Positions 873 through 19,047 of a stretch of DNA of 64,000 nt are shown piece after piece. Under the pieces are notes generated by a model. That model had not been told where the DNA came from, searched no databases, and was given only the letters and a program-made list of their open reading frames with translations. Position 1 is the first letter of the stretch. Each line of letters opens with the position of its first letter. Both the position numbers and the translations under genes were made by a program. The DNA comes from Gammaproteobacteria bacterium (GTDB taxonomy: Bacteria; Pseudomonadota; Gammaproteobacteria; DSM-19610): contig JAPHQV010000036.1 in NCBI GenBank assembly GCA_026197075.1, forward strand, positions 1 to 64,000, written 5' to 3'.

Positions 873-990
873 CGGAGCGCCTTTGGTATTGGCACTGGAC
901 GTTGCGATTGTTATTGCGGTGACCGCAGTTAAAATATTTCCAAGCAAAGGCTGGAAATTAAGGTCTATCCACGGAACAGCGGCATGGTGG

Positions 991-1152: not shown

Positions 1153-1193
1153 TGTGAATTTGTCGGCCAGGTAACGGCATTGGACTCTTCTTC

Positions 1194-2060: not shown

Positions 2061-2068
2061 TGAGGCGT

Positions 2069-2128
2069 CACATAACCAGTCGCTGCAGCCGACGCGCTAA
2101 AGCGCGCGCCTGAGCTTAGGCGTTATGA
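2069..2128 (+). other. attC-like recombination site 1
   Basis: Between two cassette genes. Outer arms are CATAAC (2071-2076) and GTTATG (2122-2127), perfect complements. The inner arms GACGCGC and GCGCGCG surround a short AAA-type loop. The AAC/GTT ends are kept although the flanking core bases deviate from RYYYAAC/GTTRRRY. Confidence 0.65.
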
Positions 2129-2145
2129 GTCATGAGGGGAATCAA

Positions 2146-2520: not shown

Positions 2521-2595
2521 CAACAGCACCCAGTTCGTCGCTGCGCGGCTGAGACGCGCCAAACAGCGGCGCGCCCTTGGTGCTTGACGTTGGCT
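2515..2595 (+). other. attC-like recombination site 2
   Basis: Overlaps the stop of the preceding gene. The 5' arm TCATAACAACAGCACCCAG can pair imperfectly with the 3' arm CCTTGGTGCTTGACGTTGG, which ends in the core GTTGGC at 2589-2594. The inner GCGC-rich arms form a second stem. Confidence 0.65.
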
Positions 2596-2609
2596 TTCGG
2601 ATAATCATA

Positions 2610-3191: not shown

Positions 3192-3250
3192 CCTTGCGCT
3201 CGAGCGGGACTGCCGAAAAGCACGGCAGCCCCTCAACTTTGAGGTTGGGC
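3186..3250 (+). other. attC recombination site 3 (canonical cores)
   Basis: A classic 65-bp site: R'' core GCCTAAC at 3186-3192 and R' core GTTGGGC at 3244-3250, both matching consensus. A strong central hairpin is formed by GACTGCCG and CGGCAGCC around AAAAGCA. Confidence 0.85.
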
Positions 3251-3261
3251 ATAGGGTAACG

Positions 3262-4071
3262 ATGAATCCGTGGTCTACTAATCCATGCTGGCAGAACTTC
3301 TCATCACTCTATCGTGAAGTGGTTGCTGCCCAGGAAGCGCCAAATGAAATTGGTTTGTATCACCATCTCACTGCTTCATTGTACTTTGGAATGGCCGCCC
3401 TTGAGGCGTTTCTGAATCAACAGATGCGTGAGCATCTTAAGTCCAATACTCAAGAGGCAGAAATATTCGCAACACTTCGTAGAGGTCGAATCACGGATAA
3501 GCTGAGAAAATGGCCTGCAAAGATTCTGTCAGATAATCTTCCGATTTCGGAACAGGCCATGGAATTTCTCGTCCTTTTCAATGAAGTGCGCGGAGACCTT
3601 ACGCACCCGAAAACGAACGGCTTTGACATCTACACAAGGCTAGAAAAGATTGAGCCGGAAGCGGTCCTTTTGTCTGTCGCAGAGTACATTGTCTGCTTCT
3701 ATCAGGTTCGAGGTGAGAATTTTCCCTATTGGCTCTTCGGCTGGAATTATCTGAATCCCAGTCACGACACACATGAAATCATAATTATTCATAACCAACA
3801 GTTTATGTTTTCGCTTCAAGGCTTAGGCTTTAACGTTCCTGGTCACGAGGCTTTTGCCGCAGAACAGTGGCAAAAACAGAATATGTCGTCATTTACTGGT
3901 TATCAGAAACTAAAACGAAGCATGGAATCATTAGGGCATTGTGAATTGAAAAATGATCGTTTCCCGTATCAGCCCAAACTATGTCGCCGGTGGTGGATTA
4001 AAGAGCACCACAAGAGCTGCGGATATGTAAGTCAGGAGGCCATCAAGCGTTCTTTAGAGTTCGATGCCTAA
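3262..4071 (+). CDS. Hypothetical cassette protein, possibly HEPN-like
   Basis: A 269-residue protein not assigned to a known family. The N-terminal ~135 residues are helical and contain NEVRGDLTHPK, an R-x4-H motif in a helical setting, as in HEPN ribonuclease domains. LYHHLTASLYFGMAALEAFLN upstream also resembles the first helix of HEPN-like proteins. The C-terminal half is rich in aromatic residues and has no recognised motif. No signal peptide is visible. It is a single cassette between two clear attC sites. HEPN proteins often act as toxins or in phage defence, but here the assignment is inference from one motif. Confidence 0.5.
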   Translation: MNPWSTNPCWQNFSSLYREVVAAQEAPNEIGLYHHLTASLYFGMAALEAFLNQQMREHLKSNTQEAEIFATLRRGRITDKLRKWPAKILSDNLPISEQAMEFLVLFNEVRGDLTHPKTNGFDIYTRLEKIEPEAVLLSVAEYIVCFYQVRGENFPYWLFGWNYLNPSHDTHEIIIIHNQQFMFSLQGLGFNVPGHEAFAAEQWQKQNMSSFTGYQKLKRSMESLGHCELKNDRFPYQPKLCRRWWIKEHHKSCGYVSQEAIKRSLEFDA

Positions 4072-4140
4072 CAAAAACATTAACTTCGCGCCTACGGCGC
4101 CGGACACTCGTACCTCTTGCCGGTTATGTTGGCGTTAGAA
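4066..4140 (+). other. attC recombination site 4
   Basis: A 75-bp site: core GCCTAAC at 4066-4072, overlapping the stop of the preceding gene, and core GTTAGAA at 4134-4140. Internal arms GGCGCC and neighbours form the loop region. Typical cassette-boundary geometry. Confidence 0.85.
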
Positions 4141-4153
4141 CTTGTAGAGGTCT

Positions 4154-5302
4154 ATGAACGCAAAACATTTATTTCTAAAATACAAGCCGGAAAGGGATGT
4201 TGTGTTTTTTTTCGGTGCCGGAGCATCCTACGCAGATGGAGCCCCGCTTCAGCAAGATCTTCTACCTTACATCCTATCCGGGCAGGATAAAACGATAGCG
4301 GAATCTGGACTGGGTGCTGAGGTGGTGGAATTTGTTAGGGAATACTTTGGCGCAGGAGAGCTCTACTACCCAAGTCTGGAGTCCGTTTTTGGGTTTATCG
4401 ATTATTTGATAAGCCACCGAGAATCCCTAGGAAAGGATCTCTCTGTCGCAAAGATCCAAGGTGTAAGAGAGTCGTTGGTTAAACTTATTCACTACACCAT
4501 AGCTCGGCATTGTAAGTCGGGTACAAGTGTTTATGGTAAGTTTTGGAACAATGTTCGTTTGTCGAGTAGAAACGTTGGTGTGGTCACGACAAACTATGAC
4601 TCTCTTCTGGATGAAGCGTTCTCGCTGTTTCCGGACGCTGGCTACATCGATTACTGCCTGCACCTGATGAACTATGACCAATATGAAACTTATCACAGGG
4701 AAATAGATCCGTTTAATTGGTGGATTAATCCCAGAGAGCCTGTTCCAGAATGGGGCGGGTCCGTCGTGAGTCCAATAAAAATAATAAAGCTCCACGGTAG
4801 CTTAGACTGGAAATACTGCGGATGCTGTGCCCAAGTCCTTCTGACTCCATGGAACTCTGAGATTGACTTGGATCGTAGAGGCTTTATACGGTACGAGTAC
4901 TATGAGGGGCCTGATCCCCACTCACCAGATATACAACCAGTCGAGTTCACCTGTCCGATAGATGGCGTCCGCTTTGATACTCTCATCGTGCCCCCGAGTC
5001 ACGTCAAGGAGATCACTAACCCTGTGATATCAAGTTTGCGCTCTGAGGCCGCCAGAGAACTCAGGTGCGCGAATACCGTTGTGTTCGTCGGTTACTCATT
5101 TCCCGATGCTGATGTCCATATCAGGCTGTTGCTTAAGAAGAACATCAAACCCTCTGCCAAAGTCATAGTGATTGACCCTGTGATAGATGACAGAAAGAGG
5201 CTGGGTTATTCTACGATCAATGATGATGTTGAGTTTTATGAAGAGGCGTTTAGTGATGCCCTAGAGAATGAGGTACTTTTAGCAAAGATATTTCCAGCTT
5301 GA
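4154..5302 (+). CDS. SIR2-like domain protein, probable NAD+-consuming defence effector
   Basis: A 382-residue protein with the SIR2-type NAD-binding landmarks: FGAGAS (residues 20-25), TTNYD (145-149), KLHGSLDW (212-219) and VFVGYSFPDADVHI near the C-terminus. The cysteines in CGCC (222-225) and a later FTCP could form a small zinc site. SIR2-like proteins of this stand-alone type often act in anti-phage systems by depleting NAD+; that role here is inference. It is a single cassette, with an attC-like site on each side. The next cassette encodes a helicase, and SIR2 proteins frequently partner ATPases or helicases, but the intervening attC means the pairing may be chance. The ATG lies six bases after AGAGG. 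Confidence 0.8.
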   Translation: MNAKHLFLKYKPERDVVFFFGAGASYADGAPLQQDLLPYILSGQDKTIAESGLGAEVVEFVREYFGAGELYYPSLESVFGFIDYLISHRESLGKDLSVAKIQGVRESLVKLIHYTIARHCKSGTSVYGKFWNNVRLSSRNVGVVTTNYDSLLDEAFSLFPDAGYIDYCLHLMNYDQYETYHREIDPFNWWINPREPVPEWGGSVVSPIKIIKLHGSLDWKYCGCCAQVLLTPWNSEIDLDRRGFIRYEYYEGPDPHSPDIQPVEFTCPIDGVRFDTLIVPPSHVKEITNPVISSLRSEAARELRCANTVVFVGYSFPDADVHIRLLLKKNIKPSAKVIVIDPVIDDRKRLGYSTINDDVEFYEEAFSDALENEVLLAKIFPA

Positions 5303-5307
5303 TACTG

Positions 5308-5384
5308 TTTTAACGAGTGAATCAACCCGACAAATTCTTCTGCGCTTCGCGCTCCAGAAATTTCGGGTTATTCTGGCGCTATGC
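5308..5384 (+). other. attC-like recombination site 5 (degenerate 3' core)
   Basis: The 5' core is TTTTAAC (5308-5314). The inner stem AACCCGA...TCGGGTT encloses TCTGCGC-TTC-GCGC. The 3' core reads GCTATGC (5378-5384), where GTTATGC would be expected, so the conserved GTT has become GCT. Confidence 0.6.
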
Positions 5385-5435
5385 AATATTTGGCGCCCCA
5401 TACAAACGTCACATGATAGAAATGGATAGCAGATT

Positions 5436-8138
5436 ATGATTACGGTCAGTACGCAAATTCGTAGTGCTGACGAGGCAATTTGCCGGAATATAGAATTGCT
5501 CTCTGACCAGCGGGATTTGCTCTCGCAAAATATTCTCTCTCAACTTCGGAATTTAGTAGAGGGAGTTGCTGTGCTTATCCACAAGCGCTCACAGGATGCC
5601 GAGTTCAATTACACAGACGTAAAGCCGGCGCTCGCGTTCATCAAGAGCAAGGGAAGGCTAAACTTTCTCGGAAAGTTCCACAAGCTGATTCAGAAAAGCG
5701 CGTCCCACTACACCATGGACGGGGACACATCCGAGCGGTTAATGCTCAAATACTACGAGTATCTCTTTCGAACCCGCAGCTTACTTCAAGATCATTATGG
5801 AACTACAGTGCTGGTAAACCTTGAAGATTTCCCAGTTGACCTCGATCCTTCATTACGTGAGTATCACGAGAAGATAGCCGCAAGGATTGAGGCGGTTCGA
5901 TCATACCCTCCAGACAGGGATGCCAAGGATCGATACTACATACACAAAATACGCCCCTTTTTCTTCGATGGTCGCGTCTTCTACGAGGTCACGCTCTATC
6001 GCGCTATCAACAAAGTGAGCAAATTCGACCGAATTATTGCCTTCACCGACATCGAAATTACTGATAAGTATGCAGCAATGTTCACACTTCAAATGGACGC
6101 AATTGAAGTGCTCAACCAAATAATGCCGATAACAGTCATACGTAAGTGGGAAGTCTCTATTCGCCCGTGTGAGCTCAACAATTTCGCGCGCCTCTTAAAT
6201 ATCGACTTAAACGTTAGCACTGGTTCGGCTGAGTATCGATACCTCATGCGCGGGCTCACATTGGGGTCGAGCAGCCTTATCGACTTATTAGATATTTCTG
6301 ACGATAAGTACGAGAGGGTAAAGGCGGAGGGGACGGCACGTGCGACCAAACCACAGCTGTTCCCCGTAATTGATGAAGCACGCCGCATCGTGAGGTCAGG
6401 TTCTCCAGGACAAAACGTGCTTCGCTATCTCATGTTGCGGATGCACAACAAGATTCTTAAGTTGCAGTATGACCGTGATGGTTGCGGGCGTCTTTCCGAC
6501 TTAAAATTTAAGTATGGCTGCATTCCTTTTGATCAGATGCCACTTTGCACCTCGCTACCCGGACACAACCCTAGATATTGGGATCTCGTAGAGTGTCTTG
6601 ATATGGCTGGGAGAAACCATGAGTTGCTCGCTCGGCGAGTCAGGAACAACGTGGAACGTTATGGAATACTTTACACCCCGATGAGTGACCTTCAGGAACT
6701 CGGTAATGTTGATCAATTGATCCCTAAATACAATAACATGCTTTATTACAAGCACACGGAGCGACAGCTTGTGCATGACGTGGGACACATTTTTATCCGG
6801 GGGTATGAGAACGACACGGTATCTATCGTTGAGAAACTTCAGGAGCACGCATCATCCGGAATTGCCGGTTACACCCAAGCCGTCGAGCGCTGGTTAAACG
6901 ATTCGTTTCCCGTCATCGATGACCCGGTAAAAGTGGAAGCAATCAAACAATTGTTTAGTCAGTCGCACGTAGCTTTGATTTACGGAGCGGCTGGAACTGG
7001 CAAATCCACTATGGTGGATCACATTGCTCACTACTTTAACGATAAAGACAAACTATTCCTGGCGCACACCAACCCCGCTATTGACAACCTACAGCGTAAG
7101 GTAACTGCGCAAAACTCAGAGTTTCGGACGATTAGTAGTCAGATCTACAGAGGCGCATCAGGCCAAGATTACGATCTTCTCGTCATCGACGAGTGCAGCA
7201 CTGTCAGCAATGCAGACCTTATTAAGGTGCTAGAACAAACGGCTTTTAAATTGCTCGTGCTTGTTGGTGACGTCTACCAGATCGAGTCGATTCAGTTCGG
7301 CAACTGGTTCGGGATCATTCGTTCATTCATACCGAACACGGCGGTTTTCGAGCTGACGACGCCTTTCAGAACCAGAAACGATGCACTATTAGCCTTTTGG
7401 GATAAGGTTAGAAATATCGAAGAAGATATTGCTGAGGTCATGGCTCGCAACGCCTATTCAACGGTGCTAGATAAAACACTATTCGAAAGTCAAAGGCAGG
7501 ACGAGATCATTTTGTGCTTAAACTATGACGGCCTCTATGGGATCAATAACATCAATCGATTTTTGCAGAGCAGTAATCCCGGCGCAGAAACTACTTGGCG
7601 TGTATCCTCGTACAAGATAGGAGACCCGGTCCTTTTCTTTGAGACGGAGCGGTTCAGGCCTGTGATATATAACAATCTTAAGGGCCGCATTGTAGGTATT
7701 TATTGCGAACCTGGGCAGATACAGTTCGATGTAGAGCTCGACCGACCGCTCACCGAGTTTGACGTCTTAGATTTAGATGAGATCGAATGGGTAGAGGGGT
7801 CGATTGTTCGCTTCTCGGTCTACGAGTATGACACTAGCGATGATGACGACGACTCGCTTAATACTACTGTGCCCTTTCAGGTGGCCTACGCCGTGTCGAT
7901 ACATAAGGCTCAAGGGCTAGAATACGACTCTGTCAAGATTGTGATCACAGATGCAAATGAGGAAGATATAACACACAGTATTTTTTACACAGCCGTAACA
8001 CGGGCACGTGAGCGTCTGAAGATTTTCTGGACACCCGAGACACAGCAGAGGGTTCTACAGCATCTTCACCGCAGTGCCAATCTAAAGGACGTCGCCCTGA
8101 TTTCTAATCGACGAGGACTTACGCCGACCGGGGTATGA
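5436..8138 (+). CDS. Large SF1-type helicase/ATPase with a long N-terminal extension
   Basis: A 900-residue protein. The C-terminal ~390 residues form a superfamily-1 helicase core: Walker A GAAGTGKST near residue 517, Walker B LLVIDECST, a motif-III-like LVGDVYQIES, AVSIHKAQGLEYDSV, and the terminal motif YTAVTRARERL seen in UvrD/RecD-type C-terminal domains. The first ~500 residues have no motif I recognise. They are mixed alpha/beta, with no signal peptide. As a cassette of about 2.7 kb it is unusually long. It lies immediately after the SIR2 cassette. A nucleic-acid-translocating sensor in phage defence is a reasonable guess; the sequence itself shows only the helicase core. Confidence 0.8.
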   Translation: MITVSTQIRSADEAICRNIELLSDQRDLLSQNILSQLRNLVEGVAVLIHKRSQDAEFNYTDVKPALAFIKSKGRLNFLGKFHKLIQKSASHYTMDGDTSERLMLKYYEYLFRTRSLLQDHYGTTVLVNLEDFPVDLDPSLREYHEKIAARIEAVRSYPPDRDAKDRYYIHKIRPFFFDGRVFYEVTLYRAINKVSKFDRIIAFTDIEITDKYAAMFTLQMDAIEVLNQIMPITVIRKWEVSIRPCELNNFARLLNIDLNVSTGSAEYRYLMRGLTLGSSSLIDLLDISDDKYERVKAEGTARATKPQLFPVIDEARRIVRSGSPGQNVLRYLMLRMHNKILKLQYDRDGCGRLSDLKFKYGCIPFDQMPLCTSLPGHNPRYWDLVECLDMAGRNHELLARRVRNNVERYGILYTPMSDLQELGNVDQLIPKYNNMLYYKHTERQLVHDVGHIFIRGYENDTVSIVEKLQEHASSGIAGYTQAVERWLNDSFPVIDDPVKVEAIKQLFSQSHVALIYGAAGTGKSTMVDHIAHYFNDKDKLFLAHTNPAIDNLQRKVTAQNSEFRTISSQIYRGASGQDYDLLVIDECSTVSNADLIKVLEQTAFKLLVLVGDVYQIESIQFGNWFGIIRSFIPNTAVFELTTPFRTRNDALLAFWDKVRNIEEDIAEVMARNAYSTVLDKTLFESQRQDEIILCLNYDGLYGINNINRFLQSSNPGAETTWRVSSYKIGDPVLFFETERFRPVIYNNLKGRIVGIYCEPGQIQFDVELDRPLTEFDVLDLDEIEWVEGSIVRFSVYEYDTSDDDDDSLNTTVPFQVAYAVSIHKAQGLEYDSVKIVITDANEEDITHSIFYTAVTRARERLKIFWTPETQQRVLQHLHRSANLKDVALISNRRGLTPTGV

Positions 8139-8154
8139 TTTGAGGAAGCGTCGA

Positions 8155-8286
8155 ATGAGCGACAGGTTTTTCAACGTGCATAATAAAGTGCTGCCAGGCA
8201 TAACCTACCCCGAAATAATTGATGCCTTTCCTAAGGGGGCTAGGGTGTGCTTTCGTCAGATTACTGGCCAGAATATGCCTTTGTAA
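8155..8286 (+). CDS. Small hypothetical protein (43 residues)
   Basis: A short frame, MSDRFFNVHNKVLPGITYPE..., starts 16 bases after the helicase stop and has a good ribosome-binding site (GAGGAAG, six bases before ATG). It ends at TAA 8284-8286. Spacing and the ribosome-binding site suggest translation together with the helicase gene. It may be a real accessory peptide or the start of a truncated gene, because the sequence after its stop is non-coding. No family recognised. Confidence 0.4.
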   Translation: MSDRFFNVHNKVLPGITYPEIIDAFPKGARVCFRQITGQNMPL

Positions 8287-8380
8287 TGTGGCCAATTAAT
8301 GCTTTCATGCACAAATTCTGAATTTTTCAATGACTACTCGCCAGGTCAGGGTGAGATCAATCGAAACCTTATAGCTGAAA

Positions 8381-8415
8381 ATATCATAAAAATATGCTAC
8401 ATATTTTTATGATAT
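8381..8415. repeat. Perfect 16-bp AT-rich inverted repeat, in a 619-bp gap without a clear gene
   Basis: ATATCATAAAAATATG (8381-8396), then a 3-base spacer CTA, then its exact complement CATATTTTTATGATAT (8400-8415). No T-run follows, so it is not a standard terminator. It lies in the gap 8287-8905, whose other content is the second long repeat. A 109-residue frame at 8437-8766 runs into that repeat and is doubtful. Confidence 0.85.
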
Positions 8416-8702
8416 CTCTGGCCGGGCAGGAAGCCCATGAAGTGGATTGAGAAAACCTCTCTGAATTCGTACTCGCGCAAGGTGAACATTACTAAAGAAC
8501 GTCCATTAGTGTCGAGGAAATCTGTAGAATCACGTAGCCGACTCCATGGAAGACCAATCAAAACGAAAGTTAGTGCGCGGGATTCTGAGCTTCGAATTCA
8601 ACAGATCGATATAGGATCAATGTCACGTTATCGCCGCTGTACGCGGAGTGCCGTAGCACGTGTTCACCGATCTCTTGCACAGACATTGTATTATATGGGA
8701 TT

Positions 8703-8868
8703 CAACGCTACGGAGCACAGGGGGCGCCGTGTAAACACTCTTGATATTACTCGGGATTGCCAGTAGCGTTTGATTAAATGGCGGATAACACCACGAGTCA
8801 GTTGGAGAACAGGATATATTGGATTCTCACGTGCTTGAACACGGCAACATTCCGTATACACACTGTTA
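8703..8868. repeat. Long diverged direct repeat, copy 2
   Basis: Second copy of the ~160-bp block seen at 991-1152, by eye roughly four-fifths identical. It begins CAACGCTACGG and ends CACTGTTA; with the next bases the end reads GTTAGGC, a perfect integron R' core. The cassette gene for the exchanger follows 37 bases after. Its 5' side ATTCAAC fits RYYYAAC, so the whole block may be an unusually long attC site; this is inference. Confidence 0.8.
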
Positions 8869-8905
8869 GGCCTTCAATCTTGATGCCGATTACTTAAGGA
8901 ACTAT

Positions 8906-9868
8906 ATGCTGAACATTTTGTTTCTGCTTATCGGTATAGCCTTACTCACCGTTGGTGGTGAGGCGTTGATTCGAGGCTCGCTGGCAGCGGCAAAGCGACT
9001 CGGTGTATCGCCGTTGCTGAGCGGTCTCGTAATAGTAGGCTTCGGCACCTCAGCCCCTGAGTTGGTGGTCTCAGTCAATGCTGCGGTGGAAGGTCGACCA
9101 GACATCGCTATTGGCAACGTTGTTGGTAGCAATATCGGAAATATCTTACTGATACTCGGCATTTGCGCTTTGATTTCGCCATTGGCGGTCAAGCCATTGG
9201 CACTGAGGCGGGACGCGGTCACGGTAGTAGCAGCAAGTGTATTGTTTCTCGTTCTGGTTGGAGGAAGTGCGCTAGGGCGCGTAGATGCAGCTATATTCCT
9301 TGTCGCTCTGGGCGCTTACCTAGTCTGGGCTTACTGGAGCGAAAGTTTTCACGCTGCGCCCTCGGGTGAACTACACCAAGCTGAAGCAGATGAGCTTTCC
9401 ACCATTCCGAAGTCGGTGTTATGGACTGTAACTGCGGTGGTTTTGGGCTTGCTGCTTTTAATCGCCGGATCACAGATTCTTCTGATTGGTGCCATTGGCA
9501 TTGCAGCGCACTTTGGTGTGCCAGAGGCGGTCATTGGCTTGACGCTGGTGGCCGTGGGTACCTCTCTTCCCGAGCTGTCCATATCGGTAATTGCAGCTAT
9601 TCGGCGACATGCGGACGTGGCTGTCGGAAACATACTTGGCAGCAATATCTTTAACTTGCTGGGGATTCTTGGGGTGTCCGCTCTACTTCAGCCACTTCCG
9701 GTTCACGCAAGAATCATACAGTTTGATCAATGGGTCATGCTTGGAACATCGTTGCTTTTGCTTTTGTTCTTGTACACTGGGCGCCGCCTGAGCCGCACGG
9801 AGGGTGGGGTACTATTAATTGGATACGGAATTTACGTCTGGTTGAGTTTTACGGTATTCGGTGGCTGA
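8906..9868 (+). CDS. Calcium/sodium antiporter (YrbG/CaxA-like, CaCA superfamily)
   Basis: A 320-residue integral membrane protein with about ten hydrophobic segments and the two inverted alpha-repeat motifs of cation/Ca2+ exchangers: GFGTSAPELVVS near residues 49-60 and VGTSLPELSISV near 216-227. Each is followed by a GN(V/I)xGSN(I)-type segment. It should exchange Ca2+ for Na+ or H+ across the inner membrane. Full family length. The gene sits as a cassette between the second long repeat and an attC-like site, and the codon use is moderately AT-rich. Housekeeping-like transporters are less common as cassette cargo than small unknown proteins. Confidence 0.9.
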   Translation: MLNILFLLIGIALLTVGGEALIRGSLAAAKRLGVSPLLSGLVIVGFGTSAPELVVSVNAAVEGRPDIAIGNVVGSNIGNILLILGICALISPLAVKPLALRRDAVTVVAASVLFLVLVGGSALGRVDAAIFLVALGAYLVWAYWSESFHAAPSGELHQAEADELSTIPKSVLWTVTAVVLGLLLLIAGSQILLIGAIGIAAHFGVPEAVIGLTLVAVGTSLPELSISVIAAIRRHADVAVGNILGSNIFNLLGILGVSALLQPLPVHARIIQFDQWVMLGTSLLLLLFLYTGRRLSRTEGGVLLIGYGIYVWLSFTVFGG

Positions 9869-9877
9869 CATAAAATG

Positions 9878-9937
9878 GCCTAACAAGCGCTTACAGAGTG
9901 ACGCGGCTGCGCCGCGCACCTGAAGCGGGCGCTAGAT
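9878..9937 (+). other. attC-like recombination site 6 (last of the array, degenerate 3' core)
   Basis: The 5' core is GCCTAAC (9878-9884). The arms AAGCGCTT...AAGCGGGC and CGCGGC-TGC-GCCGCG form a hairpin. The 3' core is GCTAGAT (9931-9937) rather than GTTAGAT, the same T-to-C change as in site 5. No further cassette gene follows; 9938-10035 shows no other feature. Confidence 0.7.
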
Positions 9938-10035
9938 TCCAGCTGCGCTATCGATACATCAATTACTATTACAGAAATATTCACTGGACCTCCTGACATT
10001 GAGCGCATATTTTTCAAGAATTATAAGCATTGGCA

Positions 10036-11349
10036 CTATTCAGAATTGTTTTCCATATGTTCAATCAACATTCGGAGTCTTGCGTTTTCCAATTCTGCGT
10101 CTGCAAGTTGACTAGCCATGCCATGGTTTTCTTGTATCAGTTTGGCTTCTATCGTTTTCTCGGATTCCACCGCCATTGATTTGATATAAGCCTCTTGGCT
10201 TGAAACGTTGGATTGACCGAGTTTTCTGGCAACGACCATCCCAATATCTTCAGATGCTAGGGATAGTTTATGGGCACGTCTAAATGCGGCTTCTTTGTCA
10301 GACGTGTCTTGGGCAAACTTTCTCCGAAATGAATGGATGCTAGATCGTGGAGGGCACCCGATTTCCCTCATTGCATTAGAGAATATCTGGCTAATCGTAT
10401 TTAGTTCAAGTCCTTCGCAGTTCTTTCCGCTAAGAAACAAATCATTGCTAGCATTGCTCAGGTTTCTGAGCTTTTTCCTAATGAATTCGTCCCTTGTGGT
10501 TTTTATGTGCTTTGCGATTCTTGATGCAAGAGCCAATGGAACCTCAAAGTAATTTTCATAACCGAGCTTCTGAATCGATGGTCTGACAAGTATGTGATCT
10601 TCGTTGGCTCGATAAATCTGTTCTTCAGAAAACAGGTCAGTTGTAAGGCAGGCGATTGATCCGCGACGCCAACCTACCTGATCGGAAAGCTCCATAATCA
10701 ATATGTTTCTTTCTGCAATGTAGGGGCTGCATGTGTCAGTGAAGTGCTTAATCAGCTTCGCTTTATCCTCAGGTGTAGCGCTGTACTCATTCCGGGTTCT
10801 ACTACCTTCTCCGCACCGGCGAAAACACTTCGGATACAGCCTCTCATCGTTGCTCTTGATGTCACCGCTGGTAATGAACCTGGCCAGTGCGCTATTGATT
10901 GGGAAGTCAGAACCAAGTCCAATATGACTTTCTGTGTAATTCATCGTATCTTGCGCCCATACAAAGTAATTGTAGATTACGCGAAGCTTGCGATTAGTAG
11001 TGCGTTTCGCAGGGTTAGTCTGTCCTTTGCTTTTAGAGTCACTTTGCGTCTTATCGAGCAACCAATCTCTGAAGGCAACTAAGCCATCATCATCCATTAA
11101 TCGCCAGTCTAATCCCTTTCCGCACAGATATGACAGGAAAGCTTTTAGGCTGTAAGCATGTAGGTCGATTCCTGATCGGTATGCCTGTGCAGATGGTGCG
11201 GTTTCGATCTTTTGCTTGGCTATAGCGAACAGGTATGCATTGAACTCATCTACCAGATCCGTATTATTGTCGTAGATGATTGGCAAAGGGTATCCCCAGT
11301 CTGAGTCGACCCAGTTCATTGTCACTGGATAAGATGATTTTACGGGCAT
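10036..11349 (-). CDS. Tyrosine recombinase/integrase with C-terminal coiled coil
   Basis: A 437-residue site-specific recombinase. The catalytic core shows IHSFRRKFAQD (the H-x-x-R box) and ARKLGQSNVSSQEAYI, with the likely nucleophile Tyr at residue 388. The final ~45 residues are a charged coiled coil (AELENARLRMLIEHMENN), a feature shared with large integrases of genomic islands. The N-terminal half should be the core-binding domain. It lies four bases after the RecD2-like helicase gene and ends the six-gene operon. It is the third recombinase here and may act with the neighbouring helicase and coiled-coil protein as a separate unit. Confidence 0.85.
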   Translation of the reverse strand: MPVKSSYPVTMNWVDSDWGYPLPIIYDNNTDLVDEFNAYLFAIAKQKIETAPSAQAYRSGIDLHAYSLKAFLSYLCGKGLDWRLMDDDGLVAFRDWLLDKTQSDSKSKGQTNPAKRTTNRKLRVIYNYFVWAQDTMNYTESHIGLGSDFPINSALARFITSGDIKSNDERLYPKCFRRCGEGSRTRNEYSATPEDKAKLIKHFTDTCSPYIAERNILIMELSDQVGWRRGSIACLTTDLFSEEQIYRANEDHILVRPSIQKLGYENYFEVPLALASRIAKHIKTTRDEFIRKKLRNLSNASNDLFLSGKNCEGLELNTISQIFSNAMREIGCPPRSSIHSFRRKFAQDTSDKEAAFRRAHKLSLASEDIGMVVARKLGQSNVSSQEAYIKSMAVESEKTIEAKLIQENHGMASQLADAELENARLRMLIEHMENNSE

Positions 11350-11353
11350 GTGC

Positions 11354-13573
11354 TCAGAACTCCAACCCTACGACACGGTTGAATGCGCGTGGCTCGCTGG
11401 ACGATTCAAGGTAAAAACTCTCCCTATCACCGATTACGCATACCTGTTTCTTCGATCGAGTTATAGCTGTGTAAATTAGAGAGTTATCCAAGATACCGTT
11501 TCGATTAGGGGTCGGGCAGAGGAAGATTACGCGTTCAAACTGACTGCCTTGGCTCTTATGAACAGTGATTGCATACCCAAGAGAGATGTAACCAAAGTCG
11601 TCATGTGTCAGCATAACGATATTCCCGTTATCGAAATCGGCCTCAGCAATGTACTCATGCTCAATGCCATCTTCATCGACGGAGAAAACGGGGTTTCCGT
11701 ACACCTCGGTTAAGATGCCGAGAGAGCCATTGTAAAGCTCCTTTCTGTAATCGTTTCGATCTCGGTATAAAAGAGGGTCGCCTACTGTCATCGACATCCC
11801 AACAATCGTCACCAAAGGGACAGGAAGCTTCTGATATCGCCTTAGCGCCACAAGCTCATTGTGAAGATGCCCGTTGATCTGGTCACACAGCTTATTGGTA
11901 GGCGCAATGATTTGCACTTCGCTGTAATGGCTGAGCTCCCTGTAGGTTTTGAGTGTCTTATCAACCAAATCGTTTATCTTGGTTGCATCGATAAAAGAGA
12001 TACCAAATCCTTTCTTAGAAACATCCTGAAAGTTGTCTAGCTGGAACTCACATGACTGATTGCGTATGGCATCAGCAACATCGAGTATGCCGGTTTCTTT
12101 TGCGAACCTATGTGTCTCTAGCAATCGCACGATTGGAATGATTCCTGATTGGCTATCAACCATTTTTTTAAATGGGAGGCCAGGGCCAATCGGCGGTAAC
12201 TGGCTTGGGTCGCCAACGAAGCATATCGTTGCATTCATCGGAGTCACCTTAAGCAATCGATAGAGAATAGGGATATCTAGCATGGACGCTTCATCGATAA
12301 ACAAGAAGCATTCTTCCTGGATCTGCTTGTCTTTAGCCTTGAGAATAAAGGAGGCGATCGTCGTGGCCTCTAGGCCAGTAGCTTCGTTCATCCGTTTAGC
12401 AGCTCGCCCAGTTAGGGCCACCTGATAGATGATTTCTGGAGTACCGATCTGATCGTAGATGGCTTGAAGCACCGTGGTTTTACCTACGCCTGCGCCTCCA
12501 GTGATGCAGCAAATCCTGTTCTCTAGGCATGTGATTACGGCATCTCTTTGCTCTTGGTTAAACGCAAAACCAATTTGCTTCTCAAACTCGCATAGTCGAT
12601 TAAAGTTGAAAATTGGTCTGAACAATGACTCCTGCAAGCTTACCGTTTCCTGAGCACCAACGATCCTTTCCTTGATCAGCTTTTCCAGTGCATAAGAACC
12701 GACTGATTGGTATAGCTTTCCTTCTTGGATCGGAACAATCCTTCCACGGATTAAATCTCCCACTTCAGATAAGCTTCTGATGCCGATACCGGTCTTCTGA
12801 ATGAAGCCAGCTCTGATTTCGCTTTCTGTTGCCGCCGTATTGCCACGGTCGTATCGGTCATAGGCTGCATCTTCTAATGCTGCGGCTTTGCGTCGATTAT
12901 CATCCTTCGAAATACCTATCTCAAAAGCCAGGCGGTCGACTTCTTTCCATTTGGCAAAGGCAAGCAACCGGTACGGGTCATCATTGATTCTCTCTAAGGC
13001 TTGAGATCCCCAGAAATTAATCACTTTCGACGCTAGCCCCACAGGAAATTCATGCTTGTTCAGCCATTCTATAACTGGAGTTTCGGCAGCATAAGTCGCC
13101 CAAGTATCAACAAGATTTTGAGCGAGAACGTGAGTTAACCCGCCTTTCTTCTTATCCGTTAAAGTGACTACGTCTCCTCGATCTAAGACGGAATAAAGGT
13201 CTTCACCGTATGCAGCCCAGAGCCGTTTGGCCTTTGTGTTGCCAACCCCTGCAAACTTCCGGTTATTGCCTATGAACTGGATGAGAATGGTGCCTTTCGG
13301 ACGCGTGCGGCAACACTCGGTAGCGATGAGTTGAGTGCCATATTCCTTGCTCTTCGAGAACGCTCCAGAAACCCTCCACACCTCACCTATGCTAGGCATG
13401 GACGGAAGTGCGTGATAATCAGCCTTGATCTTTATGCTAACTACGTTATCTGCTGTGACAGCATCCATCTTGAAGATCGAACCATTGTTTCTGGCGCTCA
13501 GAATGGATGTGACAACGCCTGTGTGGGTGACTTCAGGCTGCTCTAAGGATTTCTGCGCGGTGGATGTAATCAT
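11354..13573 (-). CDS. RecD2-like SF1B DNA helicase
   Basis: A 739-residue protein with the RecD2 layout. It has an N-terminal OB-like part, a helix-hairpin-helix region (FAGVGNTKAKRLW near residues 107-119), and a helicase core: Walker A GGAGVGKTT (about 358-366), Walker B LFIDEASMLD, motif III VGDPSQLPPIGPG, then GYAITVHKSQGSQFE and YTAITRSKK. RecD2 enzymes unwind DNA 5' to 3'. The gene overlaps the upstream small coiled-coil gene by four bases (ATGA) and is followed by an integrase gene after four bases. The position suggests a role in processing or replicating the element during transfer, rather than in RecBCD, but that is inference. Confidence 0.85.
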   Translation of the reverse strand: MITSTAQKSLEQPEVTHTGVVTSILSARNNGSIFKMDAVTADNVVSIKIKADYHALPSMPSIGEVWRVSGAFSKSKEYGTQLIATECCRTRPKGTILIQFIGNNRKFAGVGNTKAKRLWAAYGEDLYSVLDRGDVVTLTDKKKGGLTHVLAQNLVDTWATYAAETPVIEWLNKHEFPVGLASKVINFWGSQALERINDDPYRLLAFAKWKEVDRLAFEIGISKDDNRRKAAALEDAAYDRYDRGNTAATESEIRAGFIQKTGIGIRSLSEVGDLIRGRIVPIQEGKLYQSVGSYALEKLIKERIVGAQETVSLQESLFRPIFNFNRLCEFEKQIGFAFNQEQRDAVITCLENRICCITGGAGVGKTTVLQAIYDQIGTPEIIYQVALTGRAAKRMNEATGLEATTIASFILKAKDKQIQEECFLFIDEASMLDIPILYRLLKVTPMNATICFVGDPSQLPPIGPGLPFKKMVDSQSGIIPIVRLLETHRFAKETGILDVADAIRNQSCEFQLDNFQDVSKKGFGISFIDATKINDLVDKTLKTYRELSHYSEVQIIAPTNKLCDQINGHLHNELVALRRYQKLPVPLVTIVGMSMTVGDPLLYRDRNDYRKELYNGSLGILTEVYGNPVFSVDEDGIEHEYIAEADFDNGNIVMLTHDDFGYISLGYAITVHKSQGSQFERVIFLCPTPNRNGILDNSLIYTAITRSKKQVCVIGDRESFYLESSSEPRAFNRVVGLEF

Positions 13574-13953
13574 GGCCTTATCACCCTTCCTGTCTCAAGA
13601 AACCAAAGCTCCTGCTGTTGTTGTGATCGTAGAAGTTCATTCTCAGCTTTGAGCGAAGCGATGCGATCCTGAAGCGTAGATATGGTCCTCTTCAGGCTCC
13701 GTACCTCCTCAGAGGATGCCGTGCTTCTCGTGACGGTCTCTGCTCCAAGTTTCTTGTTGAGCTTTTCAAAGAGCGTCGAGATAGACTCCGAGTCGCGATT
13801 AGACGTGGGTATGCCGAGGTCAGTAAGAATCCTTTTCTGGCTGGCAGAGCCGTACTGATTGGTGGGTATTTTACTCAAAGGGGTCGAGCGAATATACGCT
13901 TCTAATTTGGCCTCATTCGCTTCCCCTTTCTGCTTGTTGGTCAACCTTGCCAT
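13570..13953 (-). CDS. Small coiled-coil protein of the recombinase operon (TnpC-like)
   Basis: A 127-residue basic protein. The N-terminal part (MARLTNKQKGEANEAKLEAYI) resembles a helical DNA-binding region. The C-terminal half (about residues 70-115) is a leucine-heptad coiled coil: LKRTISTLQDRIASLKAENELL. Size, shape and position between recombinases recall TnpC of Tn554, which helps the two Tn554 recombinases, but sequence identity was not tested. The start has GAGGT eight bases upstream. It is translated just after the GmtX-like gene (gap of five bases) and overlaps the RecD2-like gene. Likely a DNA-binding accessory for one of the recombinases. Confidence 0.6.
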   Translation of the reverse strand: MARLTNKQKGEANEAKLEAYIRSTPLSKIPTNQYGSASQKRILTDLGIPTSNRDSESISTLFEKLNKKLGAETVTRSTASSEEVRSLKRTISTLQDRIASLKAENELLRSQQQQELWFLETGRVIRP

Positions 13954-13958
13954 TGGAA

Positions 13959-14585
13959 TTACCTCACTGTCTTTAGCACAGATACTTTGTCGATGGTTTT
14001 TATGAGTTCCGATAACTGCGCTCTGAGTTTTTCGATCTCGCGATCTTTATCGGTCAGGTGGTCGCTCAATACCTTCTTTGATTGCTGATGCGCTCGCTGC
14101 TCTTTGCGCAATGCATTTTCAAGTATTTGATGCCTCACATTGATTTTGAGGTATTTCTGCTCGGCAGACTCACGTTGAAGTTGAGCCAGCTTAAGCTCCT
14201 GCCTTAGCTTGTCTGCGATTGCAGTTTTGCTTGTATTGGTTATCTGGGAGTTCGCCCTGATTTCAAGCGCTTTAAGGTCATTAGTGATCTCTTTTTTCAG
14301 CTCCGGAAGATTATCGAGCGTTGTCGTTCCGGTCCCACTGATGGCGCTAATTGCAGCCCTGGTTTTCTGGCAGTTCTGGTCACCATTCCATTTGTAGAAA
14401 GAGCGCAATGAGGTTGGATAGTAATCAAGCACCATTTCTCCGTCTCCATCTCTGACAGGGTTGCCATCGTCATCATACTTATAAGGGATGCCTGTCTCAA
14501 TCCAGGCCTTGATGACTTTATGCTTTGTCTTGATGTTTTTATGCGCTGCTTTCTTTAGCGATTGCGACTGATGCTGTTTGTTCAT
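13959..14585 (-). CDS. gmtX: Gamma-mobile-trio-like protein GmtX
   Basis: A 208-residue protein. The N-terminal domain (KHKVIKAWIETGIPY, then FYKWNGDQNC) looks like a small DNA-binding unit, and residues ~95-200 form a long coiled coil. Its start lies inside the end of the GmtZ-like gene (47-base overlap), and it is followed by a small coiled-coil gene after five bases. Placement as the third gene after two large tyrosine recombinases, together with its size and coiled coil, fits GmtX of the gamma-mobile-trio elements of Gammaproteobacteria. The biochemical role of GmtX is not known. I am confident it belongs to the recombinase module and moderately confident of the name. Confidence 0.6.
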   Translation of the reverse strand: MNKQHQSQSLKKAAHKNIKTKHKVIKAWIETGIPYKYDDDGNPVRDGDGEMVLDYYPTSLRSFYKWNGDQNCQKTRAAISAISGTGTTTLDNLPELKKEITNDLKALEIRANSQITNTSKTAIADKLRQELKLAQLQRESAEQKYLKINVRHQILENALRKEQRAHQQSKKVLSDHLTDKDREIEKLRAQLSELIKTIDKVSVLKTVR

Positions 14586-16995
14586 CTTTGATACTCACTT
14601 TAATCATGTCGTGGACACCCCAAGCAAGATAGGCGCTCATTTTGGCATAGGCGATTGCCTCGGAATTTTCCGCCTGTATTCGTTCTTCCATTTCTATGAG
14701 AGCGACTAGCTCTTTCTGGCTGTCTTCGTAAGCAACACGCTCGGCTGCAGAGATCGAAAAGTCGTTGGCCTTGTCCGATAATTCAGATGCCTCCTCCTTT
14801 AGCACCGCCAAATAGTTGGTGTTATCGAAGTGAAAAGGGCAGTTCATGCACGTTTTAAGGCACGCGCTTTCAACGCAAGCCACACCATGCTTGTCACTGT
14901 AACAGCTAGCTTTTTTCTGCTTGGATGAAGGAGATAGTGTGCAGACACCATGCATATCGACGGAGGGGAGATACCCTTTGTCCTCCAACTCGTTTGATAT
15001 GGTTTTAGCCTGATCCGACTCATCCATCTTTCGGAACTCAGCACGCCTCAGTAGGTGTTTGTATAGACGGAATACTGTCTTAGAGAAACCGCCGCCAGTC
15101 GGGTGTTCTGACAGAATATCTTGTATCTTTTCTGTTAGGTATTCCTTGCCGATCCCATTGAACTCAGTGTCGAAATCGTTGTGTTCCTGCTGGTAGAGCA
15201 TTTCTACGCTTTCTGCCTGCTCACGAACCGCTGGGTCGGTAACGTAAACCCGCGTCATCAATACAGAGATATGCCTCAGGTGATGCTTTAGCGATATTAG
15301 CTGAGGATTGTCATAGCGATGGTAGTAGATCATCGCGAAGATGCGACGGAAGACATGGGTTTTATGATCCACGCTCTGATGGTCAACACCAGACAAGCGC
15401 ATAAACAAATCAGAGTGATTGAAGTAATCATACGAGCACCAAGCTCTATCAGATGCGAGAGAATCAGGGGTTATCGAACGGAAGCGGAATAGTTTTTCTC
15501 TTCTGCTAACCCCATCTCCGAATTGATAGTTCGGGCGTTCTTCGTCTGAGAGATAAAAACAATCGTTGATTTTCTCAAGCACGTTAACGCAGTCAGATAC
15601 CAGCCGATTGCAGAGGAATGTGGACCAGTCCTTTAAGGTCTTCTCAACGTACAAGTCAATTTTGCGGCATTCGATGCCAGAATTCTCTTCGATGACGCAG
15701 CCGCGATAGATGCCATAGGGAAGTGATCTTTCGCCCAGTATTTCCTGTTTTCTTCTTCCGTGATTGATGCCGATGATTACCATACAGGCGGTTTGCAGGG
15801 TCTGGATTAGCTCCATGAGAGATGGGTTCTGGATGTATTCAGGATCGTCCTTTAACTTTTTTCCCCGTTGGGTTATGCCAGATATTGATGGGAACGGCGC
15901 TGCTATTCGTTTGGCCAAGTCGGCATAAATAGCTTTGACGCATTCCTGGTTGCGTACGTTTTGTTGCTTTGTTGGGTTTTTGTTACAAAAATTACGTGCC
16001 GCCTCGGCTGTCCTGATAATGATGGGAGAATACTCATAAACAAAAGACAGTCCGGTATTCAGAAGTTTGACGACATCTTGTAGAGAGAGGTTTTTTGTCC
16101 GTATAGACATCTTACCCTTGCTCAGGCTTTCAGCCAATTGGTTGACTTTGTTGTACGGTATGCAGGTAGGCTTATCTGTGCCGTCTGGGAGGGCGTAAAG
16201 CCAATTCAATGGGCTGAGGTGGGTCTTAAGAAGCTGATAGCTTGCGCCCATAGGATATTTGTTGACCTCTTGGCCTTTTATCGGTATTGATCCTGCGATT
16301 TCAGCCATGGAGTTGTGGAAATAACCCGGTACGATGTTTCTACTGAAGAGTAAGCCAGTTAACTCATTCAGTCTTCCGATGCGAATGCTGGGCACACCTT
16401 TTTGATGCTCCTCGATAAGGTATTTTGCAATAGCTGGGTTATTCTTCGCTTTGAGCGATAACGATAACAAACGATCTTCAACATTAAGCATCCTGTAGAG
16501 ACCATCTCTGGCAAGACCTACCGCATATTCTTCGAAATCTTCTTTCGTTAACGTACCAAACTCGTAAACTCCGTTCACTACGCACCACGCCATGAATCGA
16601 GAAAGGTGGGTGATCCTCTGTGACACCCGATCTCGACGACTTGACTTGTGCCTGTGCAAAGCGTCGTTAATGCCGAGCTTTAGCAGGTCAATCCAATGAG
16701 GAAATTCAGTTATATTGACCGGTTTCGTGAACGGCCCTAGCGGCGCATTAGAGGGAAGCCAGATCGCATGCAGGTTGTAACATACTACTTCGGGCTGTCC
16801 TGCATTGTCCTCAGCGACGTCAATCTTTAGCACATTGGAACCCCAATCGTTTAAATAGCGCGGATCTTTTACAACGTGTTTGAATAAGTTGTCTGTCTTT
16901 GTCAGCTCTGGGCGGCGATAAGGCGCATCTATAACAAGCGGGATGTGCTGGTTGCGTTCGATTCCCTTAGTCATTTTTGTGTCCATTTTCAGCAT
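14539..16995 (-). CDS. gmtZ: Large tyrosine recombinase, GmtZ-like
   Basis: An 818-residue protein. The catalytic part holds THVFRRIFAMIYYHRY (H-x-x-R) and LKHHLRHISVLMTRVYV, with the probable nucleophile Tyr near residue 584. After the core come a cysteine cluster (HGVACVESACLKTCMNCPFH, about residues 703-722) that could bind zinc and a C-terminal coiled-coil region. This extended architecture is known from large integrases of Tn554-like and gamma-mobile-trio elements. Its start overlaps the end of the upstream recombinase gene: by 29 bases from the ATG at 16995, or by eight from the ATG at 16974. It likely works with the GmtY-like protein as a pair. Confidence 0.7.
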   Translation of the reverse strand: MLKMDTKMTKGIERNQHIPLVIDAPYRRPELTKTDNLFKHVVKDPRYLNDWGSNVLKIDVAEDNAGQPEVVCYNLHAIWLPSNAPLGPFTKPVNITEFPHWIDLLKLGINDALHRHKSSRRDRVSQRITHLSRFMAWCVVNGVYEFGTLTKEDFEEYAVGLARDGLYRMLNVEDRLLSLSLKAKNNPAIAKYLIEEHQKGVPSIRIGRLNELTGLLFSRNIVPGYFHNSMAEIAGSIPIKGQEVNKYPMGASYQLLKTHLSPLNWLYALPDGTDKPTCIPYNKVNQLAESLSKGKMSIRTKNLSLQDVVKLLNTGLSFVYEYSPIIIRTAEAARNFCNKNPTKQQNVRNQECVKAIYADLAKRIAAPFPSISGITQRGKKLKDDPEYIQNPSLMELIQTLQTACMVIIGINHGRRKQEILGERSLPYGIYRGCVIEENSGIECRKIDLYVEKTLKDWSTFLCNRLVSDCVNVLEKINDCFYLSDEERPNYQFGDGVSRREKLFRFRSITPDSLASDRAWCSYDYFNHSDLFMRLSGVDHQSVDHKTHVFRRIFAMIYYHRYDNPQLISLKHHLRHISVLMTRVYVTDPAVREQAESVEMLYQQEHNDFDTEFNGIGKEYLTEKIQDILSEHPTGGGFSKTVFRLYKHLLRRAEFRKMDESDQAKTISNELEDKGYLPSVDMHGVCTLSPSSKQKKASCYSDKHGVACVESACLKTCMNCPFHFDNTNYLAVLKEEASELSDKANDFSISAAERVAYEDSQKELVALIEMEERIQAENSEAIAYAKMSAYLAWGVHDMIKVSIKDEQTASVAIAKESSA

Positions 16996-18859
16996 ATAGA
17001 TGCGCGTACTCTGAGTTTTCGATAAGCTTTTCCAGCGCCATGCAAACGATAATTCGTGGAAGATGGATCCTCATAAACCGAGCTTCATTCGAAGAAAGCA
17101 ATGATTGCCAATTAGCTCTATACCAACTAGATTGTCGGTATGTATGCCTGATTCTATCATCGTTCAGCAGAATGGGAGTGTCTTGGTCACTTAGCCACTC
17201 ATCGGCGACATTAGAGGTCGGCGTTGCGTCAGAGTTGATTGGGAAGAGTAACTTTCGATTAACATCATCAGGGTCGATACCAAACCTCTTTAGGTAATCA
17301 TCTCCTTTGGCAGCCCAGATGATGCTTTTGGCGAGCTCAGCCATGTATGTGTTCATGTTGGCCTCTGAGAGGATACGGATAATCGTCTGCCCGAGATATT
17401 GATCAGTAGTAGCAATGCTGTCCCACCCGGCGCGAGCCTTTAGTGCGTGGATATCGTGGGTGCTCATATAGAACTCATTGAGTCCTTGGTCCCGCAATTG
17501 CTCCGCCGTGAAACGAGGCAATGAATAGCTAGCCGAAAATATTTCGTTATATTGCTGATATAGGAACATCACGGCCTCTGGAAACGCTTTTCCATTAGGT
17601 TCTAATGAAACGAAGATGCTATCCGTCTCCCTTGCCCAGTTATTGGATAGCCAGCGGGAGTGGTCTACCAGGGCGCTAACGACACGATGAAGGCTACTGC
17701 AATTCAGGGAATTACCTGATGTATTTCCTGAAAATGCTTGGCTGGTTTTTGGCTTAATGGCATCAATGTGGTAGCCATCTGGTGTTTCGGAAATCATCGA
17801 GTGTTCAACTGAATTACACGTACCTATATTCCAGTCGAACTCCATTTGAAAAAGATGCCTAGCGCACATGATCGGCATGGGTGGCATGACAAATCGGCTC
17901 AAGACTAGTGCGGCTAACAGAGGGCTTTTATTTCGATTGTGCTTGCTTTTGGCCAGCCCAAGCTCATCAATGATCGACAACTCAGAAATTCCGTCGGCAA
18001 AAGGAAATTCGCCGTATTCTTTCACCCACTGTTGATATGAGCCAATTTCGGTGAGATTATAGGTATCGAAAAACTGGACGTAGAAGTGGATAAGCGCATC
18101 AGGGGATAGCTTGCTAAGAATATTGATGGTGGAAATTTCCGAAAGTGTGCGGTCTTCAAGTGCGCAAGCAGTATGTCGATCGAGGCGTTGAGAAGCGAAT
18201 TCTGAGAGGCGCTTCTGAAATGCATGGTACTTGGCAATAACATCGAGGCAAGCGCCCCTCATTCGTGCTTTTCGTTTCCTTAGGTGGTTAAGCGCTTTCT
18301 CTTGCAACTCTTCAGCGTCCGCAGCTTTGAGTGCGGAAATTGGAGCACTTAACTCAGGGTCATCGCAGCCGTGGTCGATGCTCTCGCTTATGATAGGGCG
18401 ATAGCCTGTTTTCTCGCTGAATCTTGAGGCGAACTGAACATCCGCGATGTGCATGCCGCCGCCCAAAGGAGAGGTCAGATACTTCATGACCCGGCGAAAC
18501 ATAACGGAGGGTCTAGATCCGTTTTTATATCTACCGGTATCCACCAATTCAGATTGAATTATTTCCTCGGCGAGAGTGAAGAGCGTTTGTATATCGACTG
18601 CCTGTAGCTGCGAGATCGGAAGAGAGAGTATTCGCAGCGCCTTCTTTTGAGTAGTAAGAAGTTGGATTACTTGAAAGAAAAAGAAAGAGTAGCTTTTGGA
18701 AATCGGGCTTGGCAGGTCACGAAGAACAGATTCTAGAAGTCCACCCGGCTGCACGCCTAATTCGCCGAAATCGTATTTTGACGAAAAGTATCTGGTCTTC
18801 CCATATTTTCGATGGAACCTCTTTATCTCGAATATTTTGGTGTCTTCTTGTGCCTTCAA
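16967..18859 (-). CDS. gmtY: Tyrosine recombinase, GmtY-like
   Basis: A 630-residue protein, first gene of the operon. The C-terminal catalytic region has LRDQGLNEFYMSTHDIHALK followed by ARAGWDSIATTDQYLGQ, with the likely nucleophile Tyr488, the pattern of tyrosine recombinases. About 140 residues follow the tyrosine. The start is a TTG at 18859 with GGAGAG five bases upstream; no ATG fits as well. The gene begins about 130 bases from the tRNA-Leu fragment, the usual position for an island integrase next to its attachment site. The name GmtY follows from gene order with the GmtZ- and GmtX-like genes. Confidence 0.65.
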   Translation of the reverse strand: MKAQEDTKIFEIKRFHRKYGKTRYFSSKYDFGELGVQPGGLLESVLRDLPSPISKSYSFFFFQVIQLLTTQKKALRILSLPISQLQAVDIQTLFTLAEEIIQSELVDTGRYKNGSRPSVMFRRVMKYLTSPLGGGMHIADVQFASRFSEKTGYRPIISESIDHGCDDPELSAPISALKAADAEELQEKALNHLRKRKARMRGACLDVIAKYHAFQKRLSEFASQRLDRHTACALEDRTLSEISTINILSKLSPDALIHFYVQFFDTYNLTEIGSYQQWVKEYGEFPFADGISELSIIDELGLAKSKHNRNKSPLLAALVLSRFVMPPMPIMCARHLFQMEFDWNIGTCNSVEHSMISETPDGYHIDAIKPKTSQAFSGNTSGNSLNCSSLHRVVSALVDHSRWLSNNWARETDSIFVSLEPNGKAFPEAVMFLYQQYNEIFSASYSLPRFTAEQLRDQGLNEFYMSTHDIHALKARAGWDSIATTDQYLGQTIIRILSEANMNTYMAELAKSIIWAAKGDDYLKRFGIDPDDVNRKLLFPINSDATPTSNVADEWLSDQDTPILLNDDRIRHTYRQSSWYRANWQSLLSSNEARFMRIHLPRIIVCMALEKLIENSEYAHLYAENGHKND

Positions 18860-18989
18860 AAAATCTCTCCAAGCTGACAGTCGGCGCGTATTTTGTATTG
18901 GTATCCCGACAAAGAATCGACTATCATCGATTTATCATGGTCATATAGCTTGTCCGTTCAGTAAGTGCAAGTGAAAAATCGCACATAAC

Positions 18990-19047
18990 GGGTTTAAAAT
19001 CCCTCGGTGGCGACACCGTGCCGGTTCGACCCCGGCCCCGGGCACCA
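18990..19047 (+). tRNA. 3' fragment of tRNA-Leu(UAA): right attachment site of the island
   Basis: GGGTTTAAAATCCC contains the UAA anticodon loop. The long variable arm (CGGTG-GCGA-CACCG), a T-arm (GCCGG-TTCGACC-CCGGC), CCCGGGC and the encoded CCA end follow. No D-arm or 5' acceptor strand (GCCCGGG) lies upstream, and the 5' side of the anticodon stem no longer pairs, so only the 3' part is native. This is what remains when an element recombines in the anticodon loop. The reconstituted full tRNA should lie to the left, outside the window. 18860-18989 holds the recombinase promoter region, including short inverted repeats such as GTGC...GCAC. Confidence 0.8.

Follow-up and report, generated by a model that had tools for sequence, protein, structure and literature searches.

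The six closely packed genes in this stretch of DNA raise the question of what kind of recombination module they encode, to which island family that module belongs, and where in the host genome it has acted. A preliminary description of the locus had read the first three genes as the GmtY-GmtZ-GmtX trio of the gamma-mobile-trio (GMT) islands, joined to a fused second unit composed of the remaining three. In the following, the window denotes the whole stretch that was analysed, 64,000 nucleotides in length.

Layout and gene products of the operon

The genes are transcribed in the order W1 to W6 on the minus strand, from position 18859 to 10036, and all six frames are open:

16967..18859, minus strand: W1 (YR1), tyrosine recombinase-like protein, 630 aa; TTG start, start codon uncertain
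14539..16995, minus strand: W2 (YR2), large tyrosine recombinase, 818 aa
13959..14585, minus strand: W3 (gene 3), coiled-coil protein, 208 aa
13570..13953, minus strand: W4 (gene 4), VPA1267-related coiled-coil protein, 127 aa
11354..13573, minus strand: W5, RecD2-like SF1B helicase, 739 aa; corresponds to the AAA ATPase found in GMT islands
10036..11349, minus strand: W6 (YR3), tyrosine recombinase, 437 aa

The tight packing noted previously is borne out by the junctions from W1/W2 to W5/W6, which comprise, in order, an overlap of 29 nt, an overlap of 47 nt, a gap of 5 nt, an overlap of 4 nt, and a gap of 4 nt; across the six genes, gaps therefore do not exceed 5 nt and overlaps range from 4 to 47 nt.

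Tyr488 of W1, Tyr584 of W2, and Tyr388 of W6 had been named as the nucleophiles of three tyrosine recombinases. All three assignments are correct, each residue occupying an invariant column in alignments with relatives, and family matches also place the proteins among the tyrosine recombinases. The YR1 family profile matches the catalytic box of XerA and XerD among the solved tyrosine recombinases, the Alteromonas YR1 matches PF00589 at 3.5e-7, and W1 itself shares 24% identity with Methylibium YR1 (E 5e-16). However, the alignment places an Asp in W1 at the position of the first catalytic Arg, where two relatives have Arg. W1 thus appears to lack this residue, and the description of three tyrosine recombinases must be qualified to the extent that, on alignment evidence, not all three need be catalytically complete.

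In YR2, the catalytic residues follow in the order R415, HxxR around R550-551, H575, and Y584, and the C-terminal region bears a cluster of Cys residues. W2 has no Pfam match, and the YR2 family profile found no direct match to solved tyrosine recombinases. The corresponding residues of YR3 are R229, HxxR342, a Gln replacing the His of the third box, and Y388; its family profile matches XerH at 4e-5 among the solved structures.

The two coiled-coil proteins and the RecD2-like helicase were likewise recovered. Neither W3 nor W4 has a confident match to a library family. W3, which shares 41% identity over 68 aa with gene 3 of Alteromonas, resembles TnpC and GinD in kind only. W4 falls below the VPA1267 model in the NCBIfam profile search; it aligns with VPA1267 in hhalign (98%, E 2.4e-13) and in hmmsearch (2.6e-12). 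W5 matches TIGR01448 at 1.6e-103 with 347 bits, which lies under the equivalog cut-off of 500 bits, and it is therefore a relative of RecD2 rather than RecD2 itself.

Relation to the GMT and GInt islands

According to NCBI annotations, GMT islands from Providencia and Vibrio have the order gmtY - VPA1269 - gmtX - VPA1267 - RecD-like AAA ATPase. Because VPA1267 and the RecD-like ATPase come after gmtX in these islands, genes 4 and 5 can be identified as standard GMT partners. W5 is 30-31% identical to the GMT helicases and holds the same position in the island; together with the gene order kept in Alteromonas mediterranea, this upholds the earlier view that the helicase belongs to the recombinase operon. 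The proposal that the whole downstream half is a standard partner holds for genes 4 and 5 but not for the third recombinase, which is missing from the annotated GMT islands. Instead of a fused second unit, the downstream half is more plausibly interpreted as two accessory genes together with a third recombinase that has been relocated.

The assignment of genes 1-3 to GmtY, GmtZ, and GmtX found no support. None of W1, W2, and W6 matched the NCBIfam GmtY model (NF040693) at E 0.1, and within the genome itself this model found only unrelated recombinases, located on other contigs and scoring below the cut-off. W3 had no NCBIfam match to GmtX (NF040692; hhalign E 0.21). W2 lacks PF13009, the domain of the GmtZ/VPA1269 integrase (hhalign E 0.16), which Providencia VPA1269 matches at 2e-97. 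As positive controls, the NCBIfam GmtY, GmtX, and VPA1267 models gave 529, 228, and 194 bits on genuine GMT proteins. With these controls working, neither profile nor profile-profile searches connected the three genes to GMT families, although the profile-profile alignments are shallow and very remote homology to the Gmt proteins could escape them.

The recombinases were also compared with a GInt-like locus from the Pseudomonas aeruginosa plasmid pPAC1.3a, with E-values scaled to 10,000 sequences; this reference is one locus picked by its gene layout (YR-YR-YR-small, with Pfam integrases) and not a set of published GInt proteins. The YR2 family profile matches the third recombinase of the locus at 4.6e-14, the YR3 family matches the first at 4e-7, and YR1 matches the second at 0.023, a value that is not significant alone. 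GInt islands (ginABCD; Bardaji et al. 2017, PMC5385486) resemble the present locus in having their three tyrosine recombinases grouped at one end of the cargo, along with a small coiled-coil partner. Here, too, the operon stands at one island end, with the start of W1 135 bp from the junction and the cargo on the other side. In contrast to the GInt order ginABC(D), however, the operon reads B-C-coiled coil-coiled coil-helicase-A, that is, a GinB-like and a GinC-like recombinase, two coiled-coil proteins, a helicase, and a GinA-like recombinase, and it has an apparent tRNA target. Neither a tRNA nor a helicase is mentioned in the searched text of the GInt paper (PMC5385486).

With the GMT islands, the operon shares a VPA1267-type protein and a RecD-like helicase directly after the third gene, as well as defence-type cargo, which has been reported for GMT islands (PMC12039261); it differs from them in having no detectable GmtY, GmtZ, or GmtX and in having a third recombinase past the helicase. 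The strand-biased circularizing integrative elements (SEs) are alike by description, with recombinases and a coiled-coil auxiliary at one end and imperfect terminal inverted repeats with a spacer of about 6 bp, but their gene order is intA-tfp-intB-srap (PMC10214605), and the searched text of that paper mentions neither a helicase nor a tRNA. By these sequence comparisons, the operon may be described as a permuted, GInt-related trio combined with a GMT accessory pair, and as a member of neither family.

Conservation of the operon

The six-gene order is conserved elsewhere: megaplasmids of A. mediterranea carry the identical six genes in identical order, next to a reverse transcriptase, a HEPN protein, and a type I RM subunit. 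Rhodovastum has the same genes plus a primase-like insertion and an unrelated gene preceding the last recombinase, and in Methylibium the order is YR1-YR2-coiled coil-YR3, gene 4 and the helicase being absent. Pairwise identity of the long genes across these relatives is low, at 23-32%. The order in A. mediterranea, along with a family still recognisable in Rhodovastum and Methylibium, shows that the operon is not a chance arrangement. Furthermore, rhizobial plasmids and Paraburkholderia (L010, L011, L012, L018) contain the series recombinase-recombinase-large protein-coiled coil-coiled coil-RecD2-like helicase, with an additional recombinase at the front.

A YR2 homologue was found in none of the 368 other genomes sampled from the class, and the element is therefore rare. 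YR2 also had no relatives among phages or viral contigs, and the helicase retrieved from viral contigs only distant, partial relatives of the RecD/Dda type. No tRNA was recognised near the first recombinase gene at the Alteromonas, Methylibium, Rhodovastum, rhizobial, or GMT loci.

Probable insertion into tRNA-Leu(UAA)

Next to the operon lies one half of a tRNA gene, whose other half is found on a second contig, C6, of the same assembly:

window 18860..18993, no strand: recombinase-proximal element end
window 18994..19047, plus strand: 3' half of the host tRNA-Leu(UAA), broken within the anticodon loop
contig C6 (L120) 4402-4369, minus strand: 5' half of the host tRNA-Leu(UAA)
contig C6 4249-3930, minus strand: complete second tRNA-Leu(UAA) carrying a putative group I intron, located 119 bp inward of the left junction

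The 3' half begins 135 bp from the start of W1, and the attachment junction lies at about window 18990-18994. The two halves, when joined by script, make a perfect tRNA-Leu(UAA), whereas an uninterrupted gene for this tRNA was detected in the genome by neither ARAGORN nor Rfam. The empty site is represented by a genome of the same genus (G369), in which the gene is intact and intronless at L266:11676-11762. The 5' flank in G369 shares 89-92% identity with C6 for about 5 kb, ending at C6:4369, and the 3' half of the G369 tRNA aligns with the window from 18994 onward, so that the two breakpoints lie about a base apart. In both G369 and C6, the tRNA-Leu(UAA) is preceded by tRNA-Gly, tRNA-Cys, and a GGDEF/EAL-type gene.

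The element ends, GCAA[GGGACT]GTATGTAAG and CACATAA[CGGGTT]TAAAATCCC, would fit a 6-bp spacer flanked by imperfect inverted arms. The outer bases, at about window 18967-18989, and the C6 end form an imperfect inverted repeat; it is weak, with 0.36% of random anchored comparisons scoring as high. From these observations we infer that the tRNA halves mark the two sides of a single insertion of at least 23 kb in the anticodon loop, with a crossover of about 6 bp. C6 and the contig of the window (C32) are unjoined in the assembly; they are taken to be continuous because each carries one half of the same tRNA. The methyltransferase gene to the right of the 3' half is not a neighbour of leuZ in relatives, being about 29 kb apart from it in the complete genome G080, and a rearrangement is therefore possible.

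An intron-bearing tRNA as a probable replacement

The second tRNA-Leu(UAA) contains an insert of 234 nt in its anticodon loop, which matches the group I intron model RF00028 with 46.7 bits (E 1.5e-9), just under the Rfam gathering score of 50. Splicing of the exons in silico yields a perfect tRNA-Leu(UAA) by ARAGORN, and no other complete copy was found in the assembly. The UUA codon is expected to be read only by a tRNA with the UAA anticodon. The intron-bearing copy is therefore probably essential now, and it would have been brought by the island as a replacement for the essential gene that the island destroyed. Since the intron splits the attachment core, the replacement should not be open to targeting again, and the site would thereby be blocked.

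Most genomes of the family have an intronless gene: 12 other members give a 5'-half match without intron, and in three that were read directly (G369, G080, G309) the gene is intact and intronless. Two members have a native intron-bearing tRNA-Leu(UAA):

L267 6303-7085: native intron-bearing tRNA-Leu(UAA)
L268 6679-7100: native intron-bearing tRNA-Leu(UAA)

The copy at L267 has about 475 bp extra within its intron, possibly a homing gene.

A genome-collection search for intron-bearing tRNA-Leu(UAA) returned at least 80 other proteobacterial loci. Among the matches listed, 7 of 80 show a truncated 5' part of tRNA-Leu that precedes the intron copy by 155-235 nt (L124, L137, L143, L160, L167, L169, L174), and the spliced copy is a valid tRNA-Leu(UAA) in all seven. 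Six of their end sequences are related (56-82% identity) and one is different, and all seven are unlike the island end in the window; three dissimilar kinds of element end thus adjoin an intron-bearing tRNA. A YR2 homologue was detected in none of the seven genomes, showing that the tRNA device is not specific to the six-gene module. Two of the loci adjoin VirB9/VirB10-like genes and one adjoins Gabija-like genes, as read by eye from translations, and the seven are presumably mobile elements. In the Rhodanobacter case, the far end, with the tRNA 3' half, was not found within 60 kb.

Island cargo and neighbourhood

Features of the island interior and of the contig ends are as follows:

window 1..872, plus strand: contig start, with the end of an ORF and a YgjP metallopeptidase gene (177-872)
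window 880..9950, plus strand: island interior, cassette-like cargo
window 4154-5302: SIR2-domain protein
window 5436-8138: candidate defence helicase PDC-S53, full-length family match (1379 bits), adjoining the SIR2-domain gene
window 8906-9868: Na/Ca antiporter
L120 1-254, minus strand: start of hsdM, at the end of contig C6

YgjP genes often accompany type I RM operons. With hsdM at the end of C6 and YgjP near the beginning of C32, a type I restriction cluster seems to lie in the assembly gap.

The cargo resembles integron cassettes, with no integrase nearby. Junctions resembling attC sites lie between cargo genes at window 3186-3250 and 9878-9937 (for example, GCCTAAC...GTTGGGC), with a cassette start at about 8866; the last such site, beside the operon, is without a canonical core. 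A direct repeat of approximately 134 bp, 82-92% identical, occurs at window 1019-1152 and 8734-8868, each copy ending at a cassette-like boundary. Elsewhere in the window, an ORF of 3298 aa occupies 41192-51088 on the plus strand. Matches to Rfam microRNA families were put down to chance.

Alternative explanations

Taken together, the six genes are probably the integration and excision module of a chromosomal island, and the two tRNA halves the trace of one insertion with an island-borne replacement tRNA. It is unlikely that the locus is instead a divergent GMT island, in which genes 1-3 are GmtY, GmtZ, and GmtX past recognition and one recombinase has been added. Five genes are indeed alike in size and order, the VPA1267-type protein and the helicase are common to both, and the cargo is of the defence type seen in GMT islands (PMC12039261); yet genes 1-3 gave no profile or profile-profile match on the shallow alignments available, YR2 and YR3 match the GInt-like trio instead, and the PF13009 domain present in GmtZ is absent from W2.

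The history of the insertion could also be a different one, in that the operon might belong to an island that is old and no longer active, with the intron-bearing tRNA having come separately, for example through duplication or aboard a different element that used this hotspot. The apparent loss of one catalytic Arg from YR1 would fit such a history, as would an IS3-type element read from the sequence inside the C6 end and the intron-bearing tRNA-Leu(UAA) that is common in Proteobacteria and native in two family members. We regard this history as improbable, given that all six frames are open, that the intron copy, the only complete tRNA-Leu(UAA), sits within the insertion 119 bp from the junction, that the insertion would hardly be tolerable without it, and that the layout is repeated at seven other loci. 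An assembly artefact, with C6 and C32 misjoined or derived from different strains and the tRNA intact in the real genome, is very unlikely. The assembly is a draft of 59 contigs that lacks the C6-C32 junction, but the 5' flank on C6 and the 3' half in the window match one G369 gene with precise breakpoints, and contamination is estimated at 0.6%.

Proposed mechanism and implications

For an integration and excision module accompanied by its own replacement tRNA, the following mechanism can be envisaged. The module would most likely recombine the island ends at the anticodon loop, the island arriving with its own protected tRNA. The three divergent GInt-related tyrosine recombinases, with the GinA-like one at the operon end, would cut and join the island ends, and the two coiled-coil proteins would probably arrange these ends or set the direction of the reaction, by analogy with what is thought for TnpC, GinD, and Srap. 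The RecD2-like helicase, whose role is the least certain step, would probably open or process recombination intermediates, for example if only one strand were exchanged and then copied out, as proposed for SE elements.

The replacement tRNA would work once spliced, yet be unusable as an integration site. We tentatively extend this to a broader proposal, which may or may not hold: that elements destroying tRNA-Leu(UAA) carry a replacement with an intron on the attachment core as a combined rescue and site-immunity device, which has arisen or been acquired more than once and is here combined with a hybrid GInt/GMT module. A study of archaea (PMC3293823) proposed that tRNA introns supplied by elements block further integration. 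The archaeal model and the present one are alike in that an integrating element supplies an intron-bearing tRNA that may block further integration; they differ in that the archaeal tRNA gains its intron via attP, whereas here a putative group I intron resides in a separate, complete bacterial tRNA copy. In the openly accessible literature that was searched, no bacterial precedent for rescue or site-blocking by an intron-bearing tRNA was found.

The module connects GInt and GMT, recently named island families that have been described apart until now, and it suggests that a RecD2-like helicase functions within recombinase trios. If the reading of the tRNA is true, the group I introns of bacterial tRNAs would gain a concrete selective use in guarding an attachment site, and the archaeal hypothesis would become testable in bacteria.
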